A stretch of 64,000 nucleotides of DNA, taken from assembly GCA_002783405.1 (NCBI GenBank), contig PFGG01000075.1:124001-188000 (forward strand), read 5' to 3'. This DNA is from a bacterium (Candidatus Blackallbacteria) CG13_big_fil_rev_8_21_14_2_50_49_14 (GTDB taxonomy: Bacteria > Cyanobacteriota > Sericytochromatia > UBA7694). The notes under the pieces are model-generated. The model was not told the DNA's origin. It did no database searches and saw only the letters and a list, made by a program, of their open reading frames with translations. Numbering within the stretch: the first letter of the stretch is position 1; each line of letters begins with the position of its first letter. The translations under genes and the position numbers were made by a program. Shown here one piece after another: positions 11,199-47,627 of this stretch.

Positions 11199-12269
11199 AT
11201 GAAAATATTTACGATCATCGGAGCCAGGCCCCAGTTTATCAAAGCGGCTGTAGTCTCCAGTGCGCTTGAAAAAGCTGGAGTCCAAGAAATACTGGTTCAT
11301 ACAGGTCAGCATTTTGATGCAGATATGTCGGATATTTTTTTTCATGAGCTGGGCTTAAAACCTCCTGCTTATCATTTGGGCATTGGGGGGTTATCTCATG
11401 GGGCCATGACAGGTCGCATGTTGGAATCCATTGAAACACTGTTAATCAATGAAAAGCCAACCTGTGTACTTGTCTATGGAGATACGAATTCAACCCTGGC
11501 AGGCGCTTTGGCTGCTGCAAAACTACATATCCCCATTGCCCATGTCGAAGCGGGAATGCGCTCTTTTAATCGCCAAATGCCCGAAGAAATTAATCGCGTA
11601 CTGGTCGATCATCTTTCAGACTATTTATTTGTAACAAGCGCCAAACCCATCGAATTGCTGGCCCAAGAAGGCATCACACAAGGTGTTCATTGCGTAGGTG
11701 ATGTCATGTATGACGCGGTCTTAACCTTTACTGCGCTGGCACAAAAATCTCAAATTCTCAGAAGATTAAAGATTAAAGCAAAAAAATATGGACTCGTGAC
11801 ATTACACCGCGCCGAAAACACAGACTCCCCAGAACGCCTCAAACTTTGGTTAAACCAGTTGGAACGGCTTGCTCAAGATTTAGAACTGGTGTTTACAGTT
11901 CATCCCCGTACTTCAAAAGCAATTCAAAGCATACACCCTGATTGGCATCCTAAGGGAATACTTTTAGTTGAACCCCTCGGCTATCTGGATATGCTAGCCC
12001 TCCAAAGTCAAGCCAGCTTGGTTATAACAGACAGTGGCGGATTACAAAAAGAAGCGCTTTATGCCAATACTCCCTGTCTGACCCTACGCAAAGAAACTGA
12101 ATGGGTAGAAACCCTAGAGTGCGGATGGAATCAATTGATAGGAAATAATCCAGAAGAACTTGTTTCAAAGGCCAAAATCCTCATGAATTCCTGTGCTGAG
12201 GCACAAGCACCTCAACTCTATGGAGACGGCACAGCCTCAAAAAAAATTGTAGCAATACTCACTAAATGA
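11199..12269 (+). CDS. wecB: UDP-N-acetylglucosamine 2-epimerase (non-hydrolysing), copy 1
   Basis: Interconverts UDP-GlcNAc and UDP-ManNAc for surface polysaccharide. The 356-residue protein starts with the family N-terminus MKIFTIIGARPQFIKAA and has TGQHFD, VYGDTNSTLAGALAA, HVEAGMRSFNRQMPEEINR, LVTLHRAENTD and the C-terminal TDSGGLQKEA and LRKETEWVE blocks. The ATG at 11199 fits the family better than a TTG 15 bases earlier. It overlaps the next glycosyltransferase by 4 bases. It is distinct from the second epimerase at 40.6 kb, and has the ETEWVE rather than ETTERPE variant, so the two probably serve different pathways (the WbpI/WecB subfamilies may differ in substrate). Confidence 0.92.
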   Translation: MKIFTIIGARPQFIKAAVVSSALEKAGVQEILVHTGQHFDADMSDIFFHELGLKPPAYHLGIGGLSHGAMTGRMLESIETLLINEKPTCVLVYGDTNSTLAGALAAAKLHIPIAHVEAGMRSFNRQMPEEINRVLVDHLSDYLFVTSAKPIELLAQEGITQGVHCVGDVMYDAVLTFTALAQKSQILRRLKIKAKKYGLVTLHRAENTDSPERLKLWLNQLERLAQDLELVFTVHPRTSKAIQSIHPDWHPKGILLVEPLGYLDMLALQSQASLVITDSGGLQKEALYANTPCLTLRKETEWVETLECGWNQLIGNNPEELVSKAKILMNSCAEAQAPQLYGDGTASKKIVAILTK

Positions 12270-13321
12270 ACCCTCGTCCTCATATTCTGATGTTGGGCCA
12301 GTATCCCCTCGAAACCTTGGATTCAGCCCCCAAAATACGCACTTGGTTTCTCTGGAAAGCATTAGAACAAATCGCTGAAGTAACCTTTGTTACGGGAACC
12401 AGAAAAAGCCGTCGCGCCCCTCTGATTAAATTAATCAGACAAGGCAACCTTAAGAAATTTGATGCTGTTTATCTGGAAGCGGCAACCTCTACCAGTATGG
12501 AAATAGATCTCTTACTTTTATTCCTACTGAAATCAGCAAAAATTCCAATTGGGATTTATATTCGAGATGCCTATCCTCTATTTGGGCTCAGTCCGGTGAC
12601 AAATCTTAAGGAATTGCTTCTAAATTGGGCTTGGTACATTTCCCAATGGTTCTACCGTCAAGTTGCAGATATATTATTTTTTCCAACACAAAGTTTAGCT
12701 GATTGTTTTGATTTTAAAAATAAACAGCTCTTGCCTCCAGCATCCCAGACCAACTTAGTTAAAAGTATTTACCAAGGACCTTTTGATACCCTATTCTTTG
12801 CCGGAAATCTAAATCAAGAAAATGGTTGGTCTTTTTTAAAAGAAACGATGGAAAAAATTTACAGGGTTCAACCCTCCATACGTTTGTTAGCCTTAACACC
12901 CACACAACTCGAAGATAATTATCCTTGGCTTGAAATTCGCAGAGGTGTTCTAAAAGATATTCTAGATGACTTACCGCGTATTGCTGCAGCTCTTATTCCT
13001 CGCCCACAAACTGCATATAATAATCTAGCCATCCCTGTAAAACTTATGGATTATTTTTCTTTGGGTTTGCCCGTCATTTCAACTCCCTGTCTTGAAACAG
13101 CCAAAATTATTGTAGACAACAATCTTGGCATAGTCTCTGCTCCAAATGAGTTTGATAAGGCCTCACTCTACCTTATACAGGACAGAGACAAAAGAAATGA
13201 AATTTCAAGTAATATTATTCAAAATTTTCTATCTTCGAATAGCTGGGATAAAAGAGCTTCTGATTTATTGTCTATCCTTCTACAAACCCAAGATAGATTT
13301 TCCTCCAAAAGAATGGATTGA
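12266..13321 (+). CDS. GT-B glycosyltransferase (group 1-like)
   Basis: A 351-residue protein coupled to the epimerase by an ATGA overlap. The C-terminal half has the nucleotide-sugar binding pattern of group 1 transferases (PVKLMDYFSLGLPVISTPC followed by ETAKIIVDNNLGIV), while the N-terminal half is diverged (GQYPLETLDSAPKIRTWFLWKAL). Its codon use is AT-richer than that of genes on either side of the 11-15.5 kb block, in line with a transferred polysaccharide cassette. Donor and acceptor unknown. Confidence 0.75.
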   Translation: MNPRPHILMLGQYPLETLDSAPKIRTWFLWKALEQIAEVTFVTGTRKSRRAPLIKLIRQGNLKKFDAVYLEAATSTSMEIDLLLLFLLKSAKIPIGIYIRDAYPLFGLSPVTNLKELLLNWAWYISQWFYRQVADILFFPTQSLADCFDFKNKQLLPPASQTNLVKSIYQGPFDTLFFAGNLNQENGWSFLKETMEKIYRVQPSIRLLALTPTQLEDNYPWLEIRRGVLKDILDDLPRIAAALIPRPQTAYNNLAIPVKLMDYFSLGLPVISTPCLETAKIIVDNNLGIVSAPNEFDKASLYLIQDRDKRNEISSNIIQNFLSSNSWDKRASDLLSILLQTQDRFSSKRMD

Positions 13322-13392
13322 CCTGTTAAAAAATTTTCTGTTCAAATTACTTAAAGTTGAAATCGATCACACAGAAAATTTAAAATTACGTT

Positions 13393-15249
13393 TTAGCTAT
13401 CTATAAATCTACGTAACCACAATTCTAAATTGATAATTTTCCAAATCATTTGAGATATATCGTCAGATTTTCCACTTACCCATTGCTCATAAGCTTCAAG
13501 TACCCGTTTTCCATTCCAATAATGTCTCTGTTGAAAACGAGAATCGTTCAAAATTTCTCTTACAAAGGGTTGAAGTGTTTGCCTTAGCCAAGTTTGTTGT
13601 GGGACCACAAACCCAATTTTAGTTTTTCTCCATTGGATTTCAGAAGGCAAGATACTTTCCATCGACTGCCGCAAAATCCACTTGGACCAACCTTTTTGAA
13701 TTAAGTAAAATTCAGGCAAGGAAAAAACAAATTGCACCAATCGATAGTCAAGAAATGGAACTCTTGCTTCTAATGAAAAAGCCATAGAATTTCTATCTTC
13801 ATATCTTAATAATTGGCTAAGACTTGAATCAAGCAGGTTATAAAGTTCATTTTTAAGAATTTTCGGATAAGAATATTTATAATTTTCAGCTCGCTTCTGG
13901 CTGTAAATTTGAAGAAACTCTTTATTGAGATAGGGCCTCATAAGGGTTCTACTTTCCCAATTATGAATCAAACGAGGAAAAAACATACGCCCAAAGCGTC
14001 TCATCGTTTGCAGAGGAGCACTGAATATTTCAGGAGCAACCTCGCCATACAAACGGCTCCAATTCATTTCTCGCAATAAATCTGCCCAAAAAAAACTATG
14101 AAAGCCATAACCGGCAAGAACTTCATCAGCTCCTTGGCCATCTAGCAATACTGTAATCCCCTTGTTTTTAGCCGTTTTCATAACCATCCACTGGGCAAAG
14201 ATGCTTAAACTAACAAAAGGTTCATCTTGATAGTAAATAAGTTTTTCAAGATCTTCCATCAAACTATTTTCATCAGGAAATACAAAATTTCTGTTTGCTC
14301 CTGTATTATTAAGAACAAACTCCATAAATGGACGCTCATCAATATTATTTTCTTCAAAGCAAGCAGAAAATGTCTCTTGTTTATATAAAGAAGATTTTTT
14401 TTCTTTACTCAAAAGTTGGTTCGTCATACAAACAATGGATGACGAATCTAATCCACCACTAAGACAAGTGCCAATGGGAACATCACTTCTCATTCTCAAA
14501 CGAATGCTATCAGCAAACAGAAATCGAAATTCATCTACAGGATCAGAATAACTCAAAGCAATGTCCTGGACCGTTGCTAAATCCCAATAACGCCATACTC
14601 TTTTATTTTCACGATCAATCGCCAATGAATGAGCAGGTTCTAACTGAAAAATTTCTCTTATAAATGTTTTATCTTGATAATTTGCAAAATTATGATTTAA
14701 ATATAAAAAAACAGATTCATTAGATATATTTAAATCCAATTCTTTTATGGCACATATCGCTTTCAATTCTGAAGCGAAATAAAAACAACCATTTAATATG
14801 GAATAATAAAATGGTTTAATTCCAAAACGATCTCTACTGCAAAATAATTGCTTACGTTTTTCATCCCAAATTGCAAAGGCCCACATCCCATTAAATTGGT
14901 TAACACAATCGGCACCATACAATTGATAGGCAGCCAAAATCACTTCAGTATCGGTTTCTGTTTGGAAAATAAAACCTTTTTCTTTAAGATCTTGTTTAAG
15001 TTCTATATAATTATAGATTTCACCGTTATAAACAATCCAATAACGCCCATCGGCGCTAGACATCGGCTGATGTCCAGCCTCAGATAGATCAATAATAGAC
15101 AACCGTCTATGCGCCAAACCAATTGAATCATTCAAATAAAGGCCATCATCATCAGGACCTCGATGTTGTATAGCAAGAGCCATTATTTCCAATTGAGAAG
15201 GGTCTATAGAACCTCCATTTAATTTAAAAACCCCGGCAATTCCACACAT
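13393..15249 (-). CDS. asnB: Asparagine synthetase B (glutamine-hydrolysing)
   Basis: A 618-residue class II amidotransferase. The mature N-terminus MCGIAGVF carries the catalytic Cys2 and the glutaminase block HRGPDDDG/HRRLSIIDLSEAGHQPM; the synthetase domain has the ATP-binding SGGLDSSS loop near residue 265 and LEARVPFLDYRLV. AsnB homologues in polysaccharide loci often amidate sugar acids or act on amino-acid decorations rather than making free asparagine, and the neighbouring epimerase and glycosyltransferase favour that reading. It is convergent with the glycosyltransferase and is among the most AT-rich genes of the window. Confidence 0.93.
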   Translation of the reverse strand: MCGIAGVFKLNGGSIDPSQLEIMALAIQHRGPDDDGLYLNDSIGLAHRRLSIIDLSEAGHQPMSSADGRYWIVYNGEIYNYIELKQDLKEKGFIFQTETDTEVILAAYQLYGADCVNQFNGMWAFAIWDEKRKQLFCSRDRFGIKPFYYSILNGCFYFASELKAICAIKELDLNISNESVFLYLNHNFANYQDKTFIREIFQLEPAHSLAIDRENKRVWRYWDLATVQDIALSYSDPVDEFRFLFADSIRLRMRSDVPIGTCLSGGLDSSSIVCMTNQLLSKEKKSSLYKQETFSACFEENNIDERPFMEFVLNNTGANRNFVFPDENSLMEDLEKLIYYQDEPFVSLSIFAQWMVMKTAKNKGITVLLDGQGADEVLAGYGFHSFFWADLLREMNWSRLYGEVAPEIFSAPLQTMRRFGRMFFPRLIHNWESRTLMRPYLNKEFLQIYSQKRAENYKYSYPKILKNELYNLLDSSLSQLLRYEDRNSMAFSLEARVPFLDYRLVQFVFSLPEFYLIQKGWSKWILRQSMESILPSEIQWRKTKIGFVVPQQTWLRQTLQPFVREILNDSRFQQRHYWNGKRVLEAYEQWVSGKSDDISQMIWKIINLELWLRRFIDS

Positions 15250-15522
15250 ACGTAGTTACTCAATAATCCTTGAATTTAAAAGCTTTCTATTTTGCAATAG
15301 GTACTTATGGCTTTATTACAGTTCTTTTAAAACTCTCATAAAAAATAAATTTAGTAATCGCCTTAATATACTAATCAGGCCCTTCGATATATGATTTAAC
15401 AAAGCAAAATTTTTCTTCTTATCTCGAAAGCAAATGCCTTTAGCTCTGTAATACTGACATTCATGATACTCCTGCGGTAAGATGATAGCAAAACCAGTCA
15501 AAAACTTTGGAGATTGAAATGT
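15250..15522. other. Intergenic region between asnB and the small membrane peptide
   Basis: About 270 AT-rich bases. They hold the asnB upstream region and that of the small peptide. A 61-codon minus frame (15316-15501) is present but needs a TTG start and has no clear ribosome site, so it is not called. Nothing else is recognised. Confidence 0.4.
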
Positions 15523-15636
15523 ATGGGTACCCCTGAAAGTACTTTTGTTGTTGCAACGGTTATCACCCTGATTCTAACTGCGCTGGTAGCAGGCTCAACT
15601 TTTCTAGCCCGTATTGGCAAAGTCAAAGGCGAATAA
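15523..15636 (+). CDS. 37-residue single-span membrane peptide
   Basis: ATG 15523 lies ten bases after a GGAG and opens a 37-codon frame ending in TAA. The product starts MGTPESTFVV, has one hydrophobic helix (residues about 8-29) and a basic end (ARIGKVKGE). Length and shape match the small subunits that decorate membrane complexes. It does not match any photosystem or cytochrome b6f peptide closely enough to name. It lies alone between two minus-strand genes, so it would be its own transcript. It was absent from the longer reading frames and is easy to miss. Confidence 0.5.
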   Translation: MGTPESTFVVATVITLILTALVAGSTFLARIGKVKGE

Positions 15637-15680
15637 GCCCTTTCATTGAAACACTTGAAGCTCTGAACAGACTTCCTCCC

Positions 15681-17270
15681 TCATGCAGAGGGCAAAACCG
15701 TTTCATGAGAGCGTTTCAACAGCCAACTGGCAAACGCTTCGGAGAATTTAAAATTCTGATTCTGAAAAATTTCTGGTTGGCTGTTGATGTAGTGTAAGAA
15801 AAAATAGATATCCCTTTCACTGATATTGCGAAAAATCTGACGCATGGGACGGCCCTTATAAGGACCTTGTGAAGGAGCGGGAAACTGGGCGACCAAATCA
15901 ATACAGGCCCGCACATCCTCCATTGCTTTTTCCATAAACAAACGCTCAACTTCTTCTGGCGATTTACCGGTTGCGAGCACCATCGCTTTTTTCTGAACCG
16001 TCAGAAAACGAATATTCTGTTTATAAAGTGGGAAATAGTTCAGCGCAGGAACTTCTGGGAAAGGCTCTGTAATCACTGTTTTATGCGAACGCTTCAAAAC
16101 CCAGCTTGCAAAGGCCTCGGAAAATTTGAATTGCTTGTCTTTAAAGGCCCCAGGATGCGCCTGAACATAATGCAAAAAGAAATAAACATCCTGCTCACGA
16201 CTATTTTTAAAGAGATAGGCCATGGGAATGCCCCGGTACGGCCCTTCTTTGGGATCAGGTAATTTTTGCACCATTTTAATGCATTTACGCAAATCTTCCA
16301 GCGCTTCCTGTAAAAAGCGCGCCTCTAGATCGTGCTCTGAACCCTCAGAGGGAAGAGGGTTCTTTTCAAAGCTCAAAAAGACAATGCCCTCTTTCAGCAA
16401 AGGCCCATATTGAACAGGGGGAACAGGCGGCACCTGATCCAAAAGACTGCTCTCAGCAACGGGCGCAGCAGCCACAGGGGCTGGCGGCGGTGAAGAAGAG
16501 TGAACAGAACCCACAGGGCGCGCCTGGGGCTGAGAGGGCAAAGGTTCATCTTCAAAATCCTGATCTTCCATTTCTTCAGCGCGTGAGGAAGATTTTTTCC
16601 CCCATCGGTTGATCATGCCCACCATGCGATTGCCGACCTTTTTCACCCCTCCCACCACAGAAGCAGAAAGTTTATCCCCGATTTGACGGATATTATCGCC
16701 AATTGAATCTGCCGCAGTTTTCACATTTTCAGCGGTTTCATCGATTTTTTCGGCAATGTCTTTGATATTGGTCTTGAGTTCAGTGGTTTTATGGCTGTTG
16801 CCAGAATTTAAACTTCGTGTGCGTGAAGGCATTTCAGGCTGTTGTTCGGCCTGTCGGCGGGCCGCCTCAGCAGCTTCCTCGCGTTTCTTTTTTTCATCTT
16901 CAGCAGCCAGTTCATTGTAGCGACGGGCCCTTTGAATACTCGGTTTATTGACACGGGTAATCTGTACTTTGGGCTTGGCTTCGACAACAGGCTTGGCAGA
17001 GACCGGTGAAAGATCCGCAGGTGTAATCACTGACAAAGGCGGAAGATCACCATAAACAGGCCCTTGAACAGGTGGCGAAGGATCCTCTAAATTCTCAAGA
17101 TCTTCTACCATATGCATTTCCTGCGGCTCAAGCAAAACCTCTTCTTCAAAGTCCTCGCCCAAGGAATAGGAATCCTGAGAGATCACCGCATCGGCAGCAC
17201 TCCAGTCACGATAATACTGAGGCCCCGAATCTCCACGCAGGGAACGGGGAGGACGTTTCTGCTCTGCCAT
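15681..17270 (-). CDS. Unknown protein with tandem C-terminal domains
   Basis: A 529-residue soluble protein. Residues 1-150 are acidic, Pro-rich and probably disordered; residues about 155-230 form an amphipathic helix (IKDIAEKIDETAENVKTAAD) and a basic patch (VGNRMVGMINRWGKKSS). Two copies of a domain of roughly 110 residues follow (about 288-395 and 408-525). Each copy carries GPYxGxPM, then a Glu-x-Asp-x-YFFLHY motif, and ends in FKFSEAFASWxLKRSHxTV. I know no family with this signature. The gene has an extended -10 (TGATATACT) on its own strand. Confidence 0.7.
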   Translation of the reverse strand: MAEQKRPPRSLRGDSGPQYYRDWSAADAVISQDSYSLGEDFEEEVLLEPQEMHMVEDLENLEDPSPPVQGPVYGDLPPLSVITPADLSPVSAKPVVEAKPKVQITRVNKPSIQRARRYNELAAEDEKKKREEAAEAARRQAEQQPEMPSRTRSLNSGNSHKTTELKTNIKDIAEKIDETAENVKTAADSIGDNIRQIGDKLSASVVGGVKKVGNRMVGMINRWGKKSSSRAEEMEDQDFEDEPLPSQPQARPVGSVHSSSPPPAPVAAAPVAESSLLDQVPPVPPVQYGPLLKEGIVFLSFEKNPLPSEGSEHDLEARFLQEALEDLRKCIKMVQKLPDPKEGPYRGIPMAYLFKNSREQDVYFFLHYVQAHPGAFKDKQFKFSEAFASWVLKRSHKTVITEPFPEVPALNYFPLYKQNIRFLTVQKKAMVLATGKSPEEVERLFMEKAMEDVRACIDLVAQFPAPSQGPYKGRPMRQIFRNISERDIYFFLHYINSQPEIFQNQNFKFSEAFASWLLKRSHETVLPSA

Positions 17271-43973: not shown

Positions 43974-45395
43974 ATGATTGAAATATCCAGCAAAGAAGCA
44001 CGAGAGTTGATCTGCCATACCTGCGGTTTTGCCAATATGATTGGCGAAAAATACTGCAGTGAATGTGGTGCGCCGTTGATCCATGAGCCCGTCCGCGTTG
44101 TGGAACTGGTGCGAGAGGAAGCAGAGGAAGCACCCGTACTTTCACCTGCCACAGCAGAACCCGAACCCTCAGAGCCTCCGCCCCCAGCTCCACGGAATGG
44201 ACAACGTCCTGGCCCCCGCAAGGACAAACAGGTCTATTGCCGCTATTGTGGTTCAAAAAATATTATTGGCAATAAATACTGCCATGAATGTGGTGCACCC
44301 TTGGTTTCACATACCCACCCCAATCAAAGTGTTCAGGCCACGCAATCAGCAGTACGGGCCCGAAAATCCTATAAGCCCGAAGATGATGAAGATGCAGGCC
44401 CTGCGCTGCTGCCTGAAAATGCCGTTCTTCAAGGCCGTTACCAAATCACCAAACTGATTGGCCAAGGGGGCATGGGCGCCATTTATCTTGCCGATGATTT
44501 ACGCTTTTCACGGCGTGTGGCTGTGGTCAAAGAAATGCTGGATCATTTTGCCGACCCTGAACAACGCCGAATTGCCACCAGCAATTTTGACCGTGAAGCC
44601 GAAATGCTTGCCAATTTAAAGCATCCGGGCATTCCTGAGGTCTATGACCGCTTTACCGAAGGCAACCGCCACTACCTGGTCATGGAGTATATTGATGGCT
44701 CCGATCTCGAACAACGCTTGATTTCTCAAGACAACGCTCCCTTTGAAGAACAAGACGTACTCGATTGGGCCGTGCAAATCTGTGAAATCCTGGCCTATAT
44801 GCATGAACAAGACCCACCGATTGTTTACCGTGATATGAAACCCGCCAATCTGATTTTGAATAAAAAAGGCAGGATTTATGTCGTGGATTTTGGCATTGCC
44901 CGCCACTTCAACCCCACCAAAAAAGGTACCATGATTGGCACCCAGGGCTATGCGCCGCCCGAACAATACCGGGGTCAGGTAGAGCCGCGCTCAGATATTT
45001 ATGCCCTGGCAGCCACCCTGCACCATCTGCTGACCGGACGTGATCCCCAGGGGGAAGCGCCCTTCAGTTTCCCCGCTTTGCGGGAAGAAAATCCTAAAAT
45101 TTCACCGCAGACCGACAAGCTCGTTGCACGTTGTTTGAGCATGGAGCCTGAAGCCCGCTTTAAAAATGCACGTGAAATGATGGAGGCCTTGCAAAAAATC
45201 AGTGGTCGTCGCAACAATATCGCTCCGACCACGATTCCAGGAACCGTTCCGATTCAATCCCGGGGCATTTCCACAGCCTTGATGAAGTTGGGCTTTTCAC
45301 ACAAGCTTTTTTCATCTGAATGGCTTTTACGTCTGAATATTATTCTGCTCAGCATCATCGTCATCCTCTTGGTGATGCTTTTAGCTAAAAACTGA
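43974..45395 (+). CDS. Ser/Thr protein kinase with two N-terminal zinc ribbons
   Basis: A 473-residue bacterial Hanks-type kinase. Two zinc ribbons (CHTCG...CSECG at residues 14-33, CRYCG...CHECG at about 88-108) flank a Pro/Glu-rich linker. The kinase domain (about 150-415) has GQGGMGAIYLA, the ATP-binding Lys in VAVVKEM, REAEML, the catalytic loop YRDMKPANL (HRD changed to YRD), DFGIAR and GYAPPEQYRG, so it should be active. One C-terminal helix (LNIILLSIIVILLVMLLAKN) anchors it. It precedes the pseudokinase-phosphatase by 22 bases. Zn-ribbon YRD kinases are known in cyanobacteria and Actinobacteria; substrates unknown. Confidence 0.9.
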   Translation: MIEISSKEARELICHTCGFANMIGEKYCSECGAPLIHEPVRVVELVREEAEEAPVLSPATAEPEPSEPPPPAPRNGQRPGPRKDKQVYCRYCGSKNIIGNKYCHECGAPLVSHTHPNQSVQATQSAVRARKSYKPEDDEDAGPALLPENAVLQGRYQITKLIGQGGMGAIYLADDLRFSRRVAVVKEMLDHFADPEQRRIATSNFDREAEMLANLKHPGIPEVYDRFTEGNRHYLVMEYIDGSDLEQRLISQDNAPFEEQDVLDWAVQICEILAYMHEQDPPIVYRDMKPANLILNKKGRIYVVDFGIARHFNPTKKGTMIGTQGYAPPEQYRGQVEPRSDIYALAATLHHLLTGRDPQGEAPFSFPALREENPKISPQTDKLVARCLSMEPEARFKNAREMMEALQKISGRRNNIAPTTIPGTVPIQSRGISTALMKLGFSHKLFSSEWLLRLNIILLSIIVILLVMLLAKN

Positions 45396-45417
45396 ACCGG
45401 AAAGGGAACCGCAGCGC

Positions 45418-47067
45418 GTGTCTGTACCAGAAAAACCCGAAATTCAACGCCCCGCCTCCAGTCCCTCGGAGCCCTCTCTGGAAGCGGGTTACCGCTTACG
45501 TAACCGTTACCGTATTGACGCCTTTTTGGAAGTCAAAAGCGGTGCCAGTCTCTATCGGGCCACCGATGAGGTCACCAATCTGACCGTAATTGTCAAAGAA
45601 AAAAATCATGCCGGCAGCGGTTTGATTTCACAGGGAGCCCTTAAAAATCCCTGGTATGACGAATTTACGATTTTGCGTTCCATCAGCTACCCCACGGTGG
45701 TCAAAGCCGTGGATATGTTTGAAGAAAATCAACGGTATTACCTGATCATCGAACAACTCGAAGGCCGGGATTTGGGCTTTTTCCTGACCAAGGAAAAAGT
45801 CACCGTTCATCAGTCCTGCGACTGGATGATTCAGCTCTGCCAATCGATCAGCCAATTACACCGCCGCAAAATTGTCCACCTCGATCTCAACCCCCGCTGC
45901 GTGGTCGTCACACAAGACCTGCAACGGGTACGCCTGACCGGCTTCAGCCGTGCCCTGCAATTGCCGATTATGTTTCCACTGCAGGGCAATACCCCCGGTT
46001 ATTCAGCCCCTGAATTAGAACAGCAGGGCAAACGCATGATCGATGAACGGGCGGATATCTATTCGCTGGGCGTGATCTGGCATGAATTGGTCACGGGCTG
46101 CAGCCCGCTCCGCCACCGCCGTGATGAAGATGGGCTGGTGATCTTCCCTGAGGTCACCTATTATGTGCCGGATATCAACCCCCAGATCAACAGTATTATC
46201 ATGAAAATGATTGATACCGAGCCCAAATACCGTTATCAGAATATTGATGAGGTCAAACGGGCCATTCTCAGCCTGTTTCACAATACGCCCTTCTATGCCA
46301 GTTTTATCACCGATGTGGGCATGGTCAGAGAAGCCAACGAAGACAGCTATTTTGTTCAGGACTGGCACTATGTCAGCCAAACCCAACGGCAAAGCTATGG
46401 CATTTTTATCGTAGCCGATGGCATGGGCGGCGCCCAGGCGGGTGAATATGCAAGCGCCTTGGCCACCCGTGATGTTTCACAGGTTATCAACAGCCGTTTT
46501 GAACAGCTCAAAGATCACCCCAACCGGGAACTCAATATTCCTGAAATTCTGGAAGAGGCTGTCAAAAAAGCCAATCGCAGCATTTATGATGCCGCCAAAC
46601 GCAACCCCCAATACCAAGGCATGGGCACGACCGTCACCGCTGCAGTGGTCTACCAGGGCATGCTCTATATCGGGCATGTGGGGGATAGTCGGGCCTATTT
46701 GATTGCCCGCCAGGAAATCGAAAAAGTCACCCGCGATCATTCGCTGGTGGGACGTTTGCTGGAAATTGGCCAAATCACAGAAGAAGAAGCTGCCATTCAT
46801 CCCCAACGCAATTTGATCTACCGCTCATTGGGGGCCTATCCCAACGTAGAAGTCGATCTCTATGAGCGACCTTTTGTACCAGGCAATTGTCTTTTGCTCT
46901 GCTCTGACGGCTTGGTCGAACATGTTAAAGATCCCGAAATTCATCAGGTGGTCACCCAGGCCAAGGACCAATGGCGTTCGTGCAACCAATTGGTGAATAT
47001 GGCCAATATTCGGGGAGGCGACGACAATACCACAATTATTATTGTGTATATGGACGACTTGCGTTAA
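45418..47067 (+). CDS. Pseudokinase-PP2C phosphatase fusion
   Basis: A 549-residue protein, GTG start behind AAAGGGA. Residues about 30-285 follow the kinase fold, but the glycine loop is degraded (LEVKSGASLYRA), the catalytic loop reads HLDLNPRC instead of HRDLKPxN, and DFG is replaced by TGF. The ATP Lys may remain (VIVKEKN). The C-terminal half is a complete PP2C phosphatase: TDVGMVREANEDS, VADGMGGAQAGE, GTTVTAAVV, HVGDSRAYL, LLLCSDGLVEHV, GGDDNTT. All metal-binding Asp residues are present. It most likely dephosphorylates what the upstream kinase phosphorylates, with the dead kinase as sensor or tether. Confidence 0.9.
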   Translation: MSVPEKPEIQRPASSPSEPSLEAGYRLRNRYRIDAFLEVKSGASLYRATDEVTNLTVIVKEKNHAGSGLISQGALKNPWYDEFTILRSISYPTVVKAVDMFEENQRYYLIIEQLEGRDLGFFLTKEKVTVHQSCDWMIQLCQSISQLHRRKIVHLDLNPRCVVVTQDLQRVRLTGFSRALQLPIMFPLQGNTPGYSAPELEQQGKRMIDERADIYSLGVIWHELVTGCSPLRHRRDEDGLVIFPEVTYYVPDINPQINSIIMKMIDTEPKYRYQNIDEVKRAILSLFHNTPFYASFITDVGMVREANEDSYFVQDWHYVSQTQRQSYGIFIVADGMGGAQAGEYASALATRDVSQVINSRFEQLKDHPNRELNIPEILEEAVKKANRSIYDAAKRNPQYQGMGTTVTAAVVYQGMLYIGHVGDSRAYLIARQEIEKVTRDHSLVGRLLEIGQITEEEAAIHPQRNLIYRSLGAYPNVEVDLYERPFVPGNCLLLCSDGLVEHVKDPEIHQVVTQAKDQWRSCNQLVNMANIRGGDDNTTIIIVYMDDLR

Positions 47068-47114: not shown

Positions 47115-47627
47115 ATGTATTATGAAACCCTGCAAATATTTGCCAAAATGCTCTTAAACCTCTCTGCCTGGTTAGACAAACTCGAAGCCTATGCAGAAGA
47201 ACGCAAATTTGACCCTGCCAACCTGCTCACCGCCCGCCTGGCACCCGATCAGTTTCCCTTGATCCGTCAGATTCAATCCAGCTGTGACAGTGCAAAATTT
47301 GCAGCTTCACGCCTAACAGGCCGTGAAGCCCCCAGTCACCCCGATACCGAAACCAACCTTGCTGAACTCAAAAGCCGAATTCAGGCCACCGTTGACTATT
47401 TGCGCAGTTTTGACGAAACTGACTTCAAAGATTCAGCCGAGAAACAGGTCGTCCTGCCCTTTTTTCCGGATAAATTTCTGACAGGCCAAGCCTATCTCCA
47501 GGAATTTGCCCTGCCCAATTTTTATTTTCACCTCAATACCAGCTATGCCATCCTGCGTCACAATGGCGTCTGCATCGGCAAGCAGGATTATATCGGCAGC
47601 CTGCCCTTTCAAGAACTGCCGGCCTGA
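47115..47627 (+). CDS. DUF1993 family protein
   Basis: A 170-residue helical protein with the DUF1993 pattern (MYYETLQIFAKMLLNLSAWLDKLEAYAEERKFDP region, LAPDQFPLIRQIQSSCDSAKFAASRLTG, LPNFYFHLNTSYAILRHNGVCIGKQDY, each only partly quoted here). It resembles DinB-type four-helix proteins. The ATG lies behind GAGGAGAA. It follows the phosphatase after 47 bases and may be in the same transcript. No function is known. Confidence 0.82.
   Translation: MYYETLQIFAKMLLNLSAWLDKLEAYAEERKFDPANLLTARLAPDQFPLIRQIQSSCDSAKFAASRLTGREAPSHPDTETNLAELKSRIQATVDYLRSFDETDFKDSAEKQVVLPFFPDKFLTGQAYLQEFALPNFYFHLNTSYAILRHNGVCIGKQDYIGSLPFQELPA

Follow-up and report, generated by a model that had tools for sequence, protein, structure and literature searches.

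PstP is the phosphatase of the actinobacterial PknB/FhaA-FhaB network, which joins a membrane Ser/Thr kinase, a PP2C phosphatase, an FHA protein and the pseudokinase MviN. In mycobacteria PknB phosphorylates MviN, which is then regulated by FhaA, and clusters of kinase and FHA genes are known in Actinobacteria (PMC3989709). Composite proteins of Pseudomonas and Deinococcus carry PP2C and kinase on one chain, the PP2C domain being N-terminal and the kinase half being treated as a kinase (PMC1262709), and a 2025 survey of bacterial PP2C phosphatases finds most fusions to kinase domains in Pseudomonadota and interprets such proteins as possibly bifunctional (PMC12088040). The described bacterial pseudokinase families comprise ActPs1-3, GLW, CP1, DYD and DLHK, and the 2025 review of bacterial pseudokinases contains no mention of PP2C (PMC12599244). 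We found no publication containing both 'pseudokinase domain' and 'PP2C domain' in a literature search outside of which most subscription papers lay. Here we describe a gene pair of the Sericytochromatia which, as far as the searched literature goes, is a real, conserved and undescribed variant of the kinase-PP2C-FHA module.

The pair lies in a window of 64,000 nucleotides, i.e. the whole stretch of DNA analysed here, which originates from a 5.65 Mb genome of 84 contigs. Related contigs are named Candidatus Sericytochromatia and Tanganyikabacteria, and the host is a non-photosynthetic relative of Cyanobacteria. Both genes are encoded on the + strand: P0001 (43974..45395) is a zinc-ribbon Hanks-type Ser/Thr kinase of 473 amino acids with a C-terminal hydrophobic tail and P0002 (45418..47067) is a pseudokinase-PP2C fusion of 549 amino acids, the GTG start codon of which is located 22 nt past the P0001 stop codon, the two genes presumably being transcribed as an operon. 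Coordinates, strands and domains given for both genes in the preliminary description, made from the sequence of this window alone, are correct. Immediately downstream of P0002 follows a gene for a DUF1993 protein (47115-47627), which is not among the conserved neighbours in other loci. Upstream of the kinase, loci outside the window's family (L027-L033) show a same-strand gene run, encoding in L032, among others, a CarboxypepD_reg protein, a subtilase and a fervidolysin-prodomain-like protein. In a separate part of the window (12001-16000) the G+C content drops to ~0.37 compared to ~0.50 around, with glycosyltransferase-like and asparagine-synthase-like genes beside a UDP-GlcNAc 2-epimerase-like gene, possibly representing an acquired surface-polysaccharide locus.

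P0001 has all features of a Hanks-type Ser/Thr kinase (fold, VAIK Lys, HRD Asp, Mg-binding Asn and DFG Asp). Its kinase domain (residues 154-409; 44433..45200; Pfam and alignment) matches Pkinase with 144.4 bits and contains the complete catalytic set, i.e. K186 of the VAIK motif, E208 of helix αC, D287 of the YRD motif, K289, N292 and D305 of the DFG motif. All six residues are invariant in an alignment of 17 P0001 orthologues, extending to these orthologues what had been described for the single protein, and the same holds for the activation-loop threonines T319 and T323. The two zinc ribbons previously noted are confirmed by Pfam, the first at residues 14-36 (44013..44081; DZR, with CxxC pairs in the sequence) and the second at residues 88-110 (44235..44303; Zn_Ribbon_1, E 2.3e-8). 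These ribbons distinguish P0001 from the PknB system, in which PASTA domains are present instead: P0001 scores 226.7 bits against a cut-off of 450 in the NCBIfam model NF033483 for PASTA kinases PknB/Stk1, so we rejected this assignment, and Pfam found no PASTA repeats in P0001. Reading the sequence by eye, we observe the hydrophobic segment formerly described as tail anchor at approximately residues 454-470 (45333..45383), and orthologues carry such a segment C-terminal of the kinase domain as well; the stretch itself is thus present, its role in anchoring the kinase to the membrane being probable judged from the sequence. In one family (L029, 7143-9737; L030, 7414-9999) the hydrophobic segment of the partner kinase is followed by a C-terminal extension of TPRs and a Peripla_BP_6 domain, which is likely an extracytoplasmic ligand sensor, suggesting that the kinase of this family responds to a signal from outside the cell. 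P0001 has no Peripla_BP_6-type domain. An architecture of kinase and ANF-receptor is known in Nostoc (PMC1262709).

The N-terminal half of P0002 (residues 29-290; 45502..46287) is assigned to the kinase fold by Pfam (Pkinase, 95 bits, residues 44-274, the PP2C domain lying C-terminal of this match), by alignment and by an AlphaFold2 model with Foldseek. Aligning 17 active partner kinases with 17 P0002-type domains reveals its active site to be degraded in every orthologue. In P0002, E38, K40 and A43 replace the three glycines of the Gly loop, the HRD motif reads H154-L155-D156 with Leu replacing Arg, Asn replaces the catalytic Lys, C161 occupies the position of the Mg-binding Asn and G175-F176-S177 that of the DFG motif. 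Across the orthologues the three glycines are exchanged for Glu (17/17), Lys or Arg, and Ala, Ser or Val; the HRD Arg for Leu or Met (17/17); the catalytic-loop Lys for Asn, Gln or His (16/17); and the Mg-binding Asn for Cys, Tyr or Val (17/17). DFG is replaced by GF(H/S) in nearly all domains, its Asp being gone from all 17, so that none retains either Mg ligand. The preliminary description, which had listed the losses of the Gly loop, the catalytic-loop Asn and the DFG motif, therefore holds for the whole family, and we rejected the possibility of an intact Hanks kinase. It did not mention the retention of the VAIK Lys (K60; 15/17), the αC Glu (E82; 16/17) and the HRD Asp (D156; 17/17), to which we add the APE Glu and the αF Asp (both 17/17). 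Because the catalytic residues are lost across the alignment, phosphotransfer from Mg-ATP by the kinase half is very unlikely, and since the Lys-Glu pair and the HRD Asp are kept in 15-17 of the 17 domains, binding of a nucleotide is conceivable. In one genome (G007, locus L026) Lys and Glu are both lost, being exchanged for Met and Tyr, and the gene is still paired. Showing a kinase fold by homology, catalytic losses and selection, the N-terminal half of P0002 has all features of a pseudokinase and resembles ActPs1-3, GLW, CP1, DYD and DLHK in being a conserved bacterial one. CP1 comes with a linked COG3899 domain, and the partner domains of DLHK, in which the catalytic-loop Asn is kept, are mostly of the helicase type (PMC12599244); by these criteria we rejected both families for P0002, in which PP2C is the only other domain and this Asn is absent.

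The C-terminal half of P0002 is a PP2C domain of the Stp1 type (residues 294-549; 46297..47064; Pfam, NCBIfam and Foldseek), passing the NCBIfam model NF033484 (Stp1/IreP) with 265.5 at a cut-off of 230. The presence of every metal-binding Asp, as proposed earlier, is borne out by the motifs RxxNED, DGMGG, GDS, SDG and DN, which are invariant in the 16 full-length P0002 orthologues. Unlike the usual free-standing members of NF033484, this PP2C is preceded by a 290-residue pseudokinase. We rejected P0002 as PRK14559 cyanobacterial serine/threonine phosphatase, as NF011149 reaches 116.3 versus a cut-off of 374 within the PP2C part only, and the two belong to separate PP2C clades. The AlphaFold2 model, built from 14 sequences of the window and related loci, has a mean pLDDT of 75 and predicts a complete kinase fold with both lobes being present. 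In Foldseek, the kinase-like half matches Stk1/PknB (TM 0.76-0.79 on target) and the phosphatase half tPphA/Stp1/PstP (TM ~0.8 on target); at a pTM of 0.49, the model is no reliable guide to how the halves are positioned towards each other.

P0002 has full-length orthologues in 17 of the 18 Sericytochromatia genomes at 48-93% identity, one being clipped by a contig end, and the sole genome lacking it (G006) is 74% complete. In all 17 loci an orthologue of the kinase lies immediately upstream on the same strand. With conservation in 17 genomes and adjacency in 17/17, chance is excluded as the origin of the pair, and neither an arrangement confined to this contig nor homologues devoid of a paired kinase, either of which would have contradicted the preliminary description, was encountered. 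Among 292 genomes of the phylum the pseudokinase profile finds orthologues, with E < 1e-123, in the class only, the next-best match (5e-40) being the active kinase next to the fusion gene in one of the class genomes. A scan of GTDB genome contigs, extending the search beyond the phylum, used short peptide patterns which diverged relatives could escape; it returned 13 loci of the class and two ordinary kinases of remote relationship. The dN/dS values between the window and a genome of the same genus (G001) are 0.038 for the pseudokinase, 0.040 for the active kinase and 0.023 for PP2C, being rough as synonymous sites are near saturation. Purifying selection acts on the pseudokinase and the active kinase with equal strength, and the whole pseudokinase domain is conserved with no domain loss among the class orthologues. 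Conservation of the active-site columns of the pseudokinase does not significantly exceed that of the remaining domain columns (p 0.11), and sequence conservation therefore singles out no particular surface.

The statement that no FHA domain is adjacent to the pair is true within the window and is misleading for the class, most members of which have an FHA gene as downstream neighbour. It directly follows the pair in 8/8 loci (L027-L032, L034, L036), these being the loci outside the window's family whose contigs reach far enough downstream. In addition, an FHA gene starts at the contig end in G010, and in G007 FHA comes after a P0002-type PP2C of which the contig holds the end. The FHA protein bears an N-terminal zinc ribbon in most of the eight loci, L027 and L028 having two FHA copies, and the phosphothreonine-binding motifs GR, SRKH and NG are present. 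FHA orthologues were found in 17 of 18 class genomes, that of the window's genome (G000:C50:32289-32603, 72% identity) being unlinked from the pair and lying next to an HD-GYP gene. In four genomes of the window's family the neighbour of the FHA orthologue encodes two HD domains with HD...GYP motifs (L136, 5245-7013; L138, 3441-5218), a possible link to cyclic-di-GMP.

Linkage and co-occurrence suggest that kinase, PP2C and FHA protein may form one module, in which P0001 and P0002 would be writer and eraser of Ser/Thr phosphorylation and the FHA protein, encoded elsewhere in the window's genome, would be the phosphothreonine reader and third part. P0001, which is probably membrane-anchored, would probably autophosphorylate its activation loop at the conserved T319/T323, and P0002 would be a dedicated PP2C, its kinase-fold half being very unlikely to perform Mg-ATP catalysis. 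We propose a model according to which this half is a docking and regulatory domain binding either the partner kinase, through contact between the two kinase folds, or the phosphorylated assembly of kinase and FHA, thereby directing PP2C to putative substrates within its own pathway and sparing the other phosphoproteins of the genome. The link between pseudokinase and kinase is suggested by the strict gene pairing and the fusion, that between reader and writer by the cyanobacterial FHA being naturally fused to a kinase. We consider the chances to be about even that the pseudokinase serves to dock PP2C, either to the kinase of the pair or to the FHA reader of this kinase. The earlier proposal of the dead kinase as sensor or docking unit fits the purifying selection and the strict pairing, its variant of reading the phosphorylation state of the partner being inseparable from docking. 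The further proposal of both enzymes forming a toggle is hypothetical.

The retained VAIK Lys and αC Glu would also fit an allosteric sensor, in which a nucleotide or metabolite bound without Mg switches the fused PP2C and contact to the kinase is secondary, and bacterial pseudokinases have been modelled with ATP despite missing canonical residues (PMC12599244). However, both Mg ligands are gone throughout and the G007 protein has lost Lys and Glu while still being paired, suggesting that not all orthologues bind a nucleotide, and we regard a ligand sensor as rather unlikely. The mycobacterial precedent of MviN and FhaA (PMC3989709) and the proximity of an FHA gene to the pair in the majority of class members would agree with the pseudokinase being a decoy or scaffold substrate, phosphorylated by P0001, read by FHA and reset by the fused PP2C. 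As the activation-loop threonines of the kinase are not jointly retained in the P0002 orthologues and a conserved Thr-rich tail was not found in these, such a role appears improbable.

Some pseudokinases, such as SelO and SidJ, have other activities, and the HRD Asp is invariant in all 17 P0002-type domains, which would be in line with an atypical transferase activity, i.e. AMPylation, metal-independent phosphorylation or other group transfer; with the catalytic-loop Lys missing in 16/17 and the Mg-binding Asn and DFG Asp in all domains, we give little credence to it. That the PP2C half passes the Stp1 cut-off by itself would be expected as well if P0002 were an ordinary Stp1-type phosphatase and its kinase-like half a mere tethering relic, the fusion having no specific role. 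Selection on the pseudokinase equalling that on the active kinase and the class-wide retention of the whole domain make this highly improbable. Docking of PP2C to the partner kinase or its reader thus is the reading we prefer.

Comparison with known systems shows the same components in other combinations. The pair resembles the PknB/PstP/FhaA-FhaB cluster in its inventory, whereas in Actinobacteria the pseudokinase is a separate protein and PP2C is plain; here the two are fused. Compared to the composites of Pseudomonas and Deinococcus, P0002 has the reversed domain order, a dead kinase half and a separate active kinase adjoining. The cyanobacterial FHA-kinase proteins (PMC1262709) include the sampled kinase closest to P0001, which also adjoins a zinc-ribbon PP2C, but there FHA is fused to the kinase, the ribbons are on the phosphatase and this PP2C falls outside the P0002 clade. 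In 19 of 23 sampled cyanobacterial loci (L149, 3902-7286; L150, L151, L169-L188) a double-zinc-ribbon PP2C of ~640 amino acids, a relative of PRK14559, is followed by the FHA-zinc-ribbon kinase. The latter is the nearest sampled kinase of P0001 in the tree (bootstrap 100, SH-aLRT 97), alternatives to this grouping not being rejected by the AU test (p 0.11). When the N-terminal region of PRK14559 was compared directly to kinases by profiles, no signal was obtained (probability 1-2%). The middle domain of the double-zinc-ribbon PP2Cs shows a weak colinear signal to kinases (probability 10-17%), matched by 0/60 shuffles in each of three comparisons; this is suggestive only, and the domain may be a decayed kinase.

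A further cyanobacterial arrangement, the CY type, has the order zinc-ribbon FHA, decayed kinase-PP2C and zinc-ribbon kinase with TPRs (L060-L062, L142-L148) and occurs in 11 cyanobacterial genomes in a sample of 146 genomes. Against the pseudokinase profile of the Sericytochromatia, the kinase-like region of the CY type reaches 97% probability (E 1.8e-11), compared to 95% against active kinases, and in a 117-genome sample the related FHA was found only at CY loci and at three class loci. In the PP2C tree P0002, the CY type and the PRK14559 type form separate clades, the union of which is unsupported. A single ancestral pseudokinase-PP2C fusion is possible, and since the three PP2C types lie in unjoined clades, convergence is conceivable. 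We tentatively consider, while doubting it somewhat, a phylum-wide design of phosphatases aimed by a dead kinase, in which the common ancestor of Cyanobacteria and Sericytochromatia would have possessed a zinc-ribbon kinase, a PP2C tethered to a kinase fold and an FHA reader as one module, later reshuffled into varied fusions, the widespread zinc-ribbon PP2Cs of Cyanobacteria related to PRK14559 containing an unrecognised, heavily decayed kinase domain.

Bacterial PP2C phosphatases are few and promiscuous, and how they find their targets is largely open. To our knowledge, almost no functions of bacterial pseudokinases are known. A phosphatase with a dead kinase travelling beside a live kinase would be a simple, testable answer to PP2C targeting and extends the bacterial pseudokinases by a family which is defined through its partner. 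Counterparts in Cyanobacteria are found in genetically tractable organisms, in which this idea can be tested.
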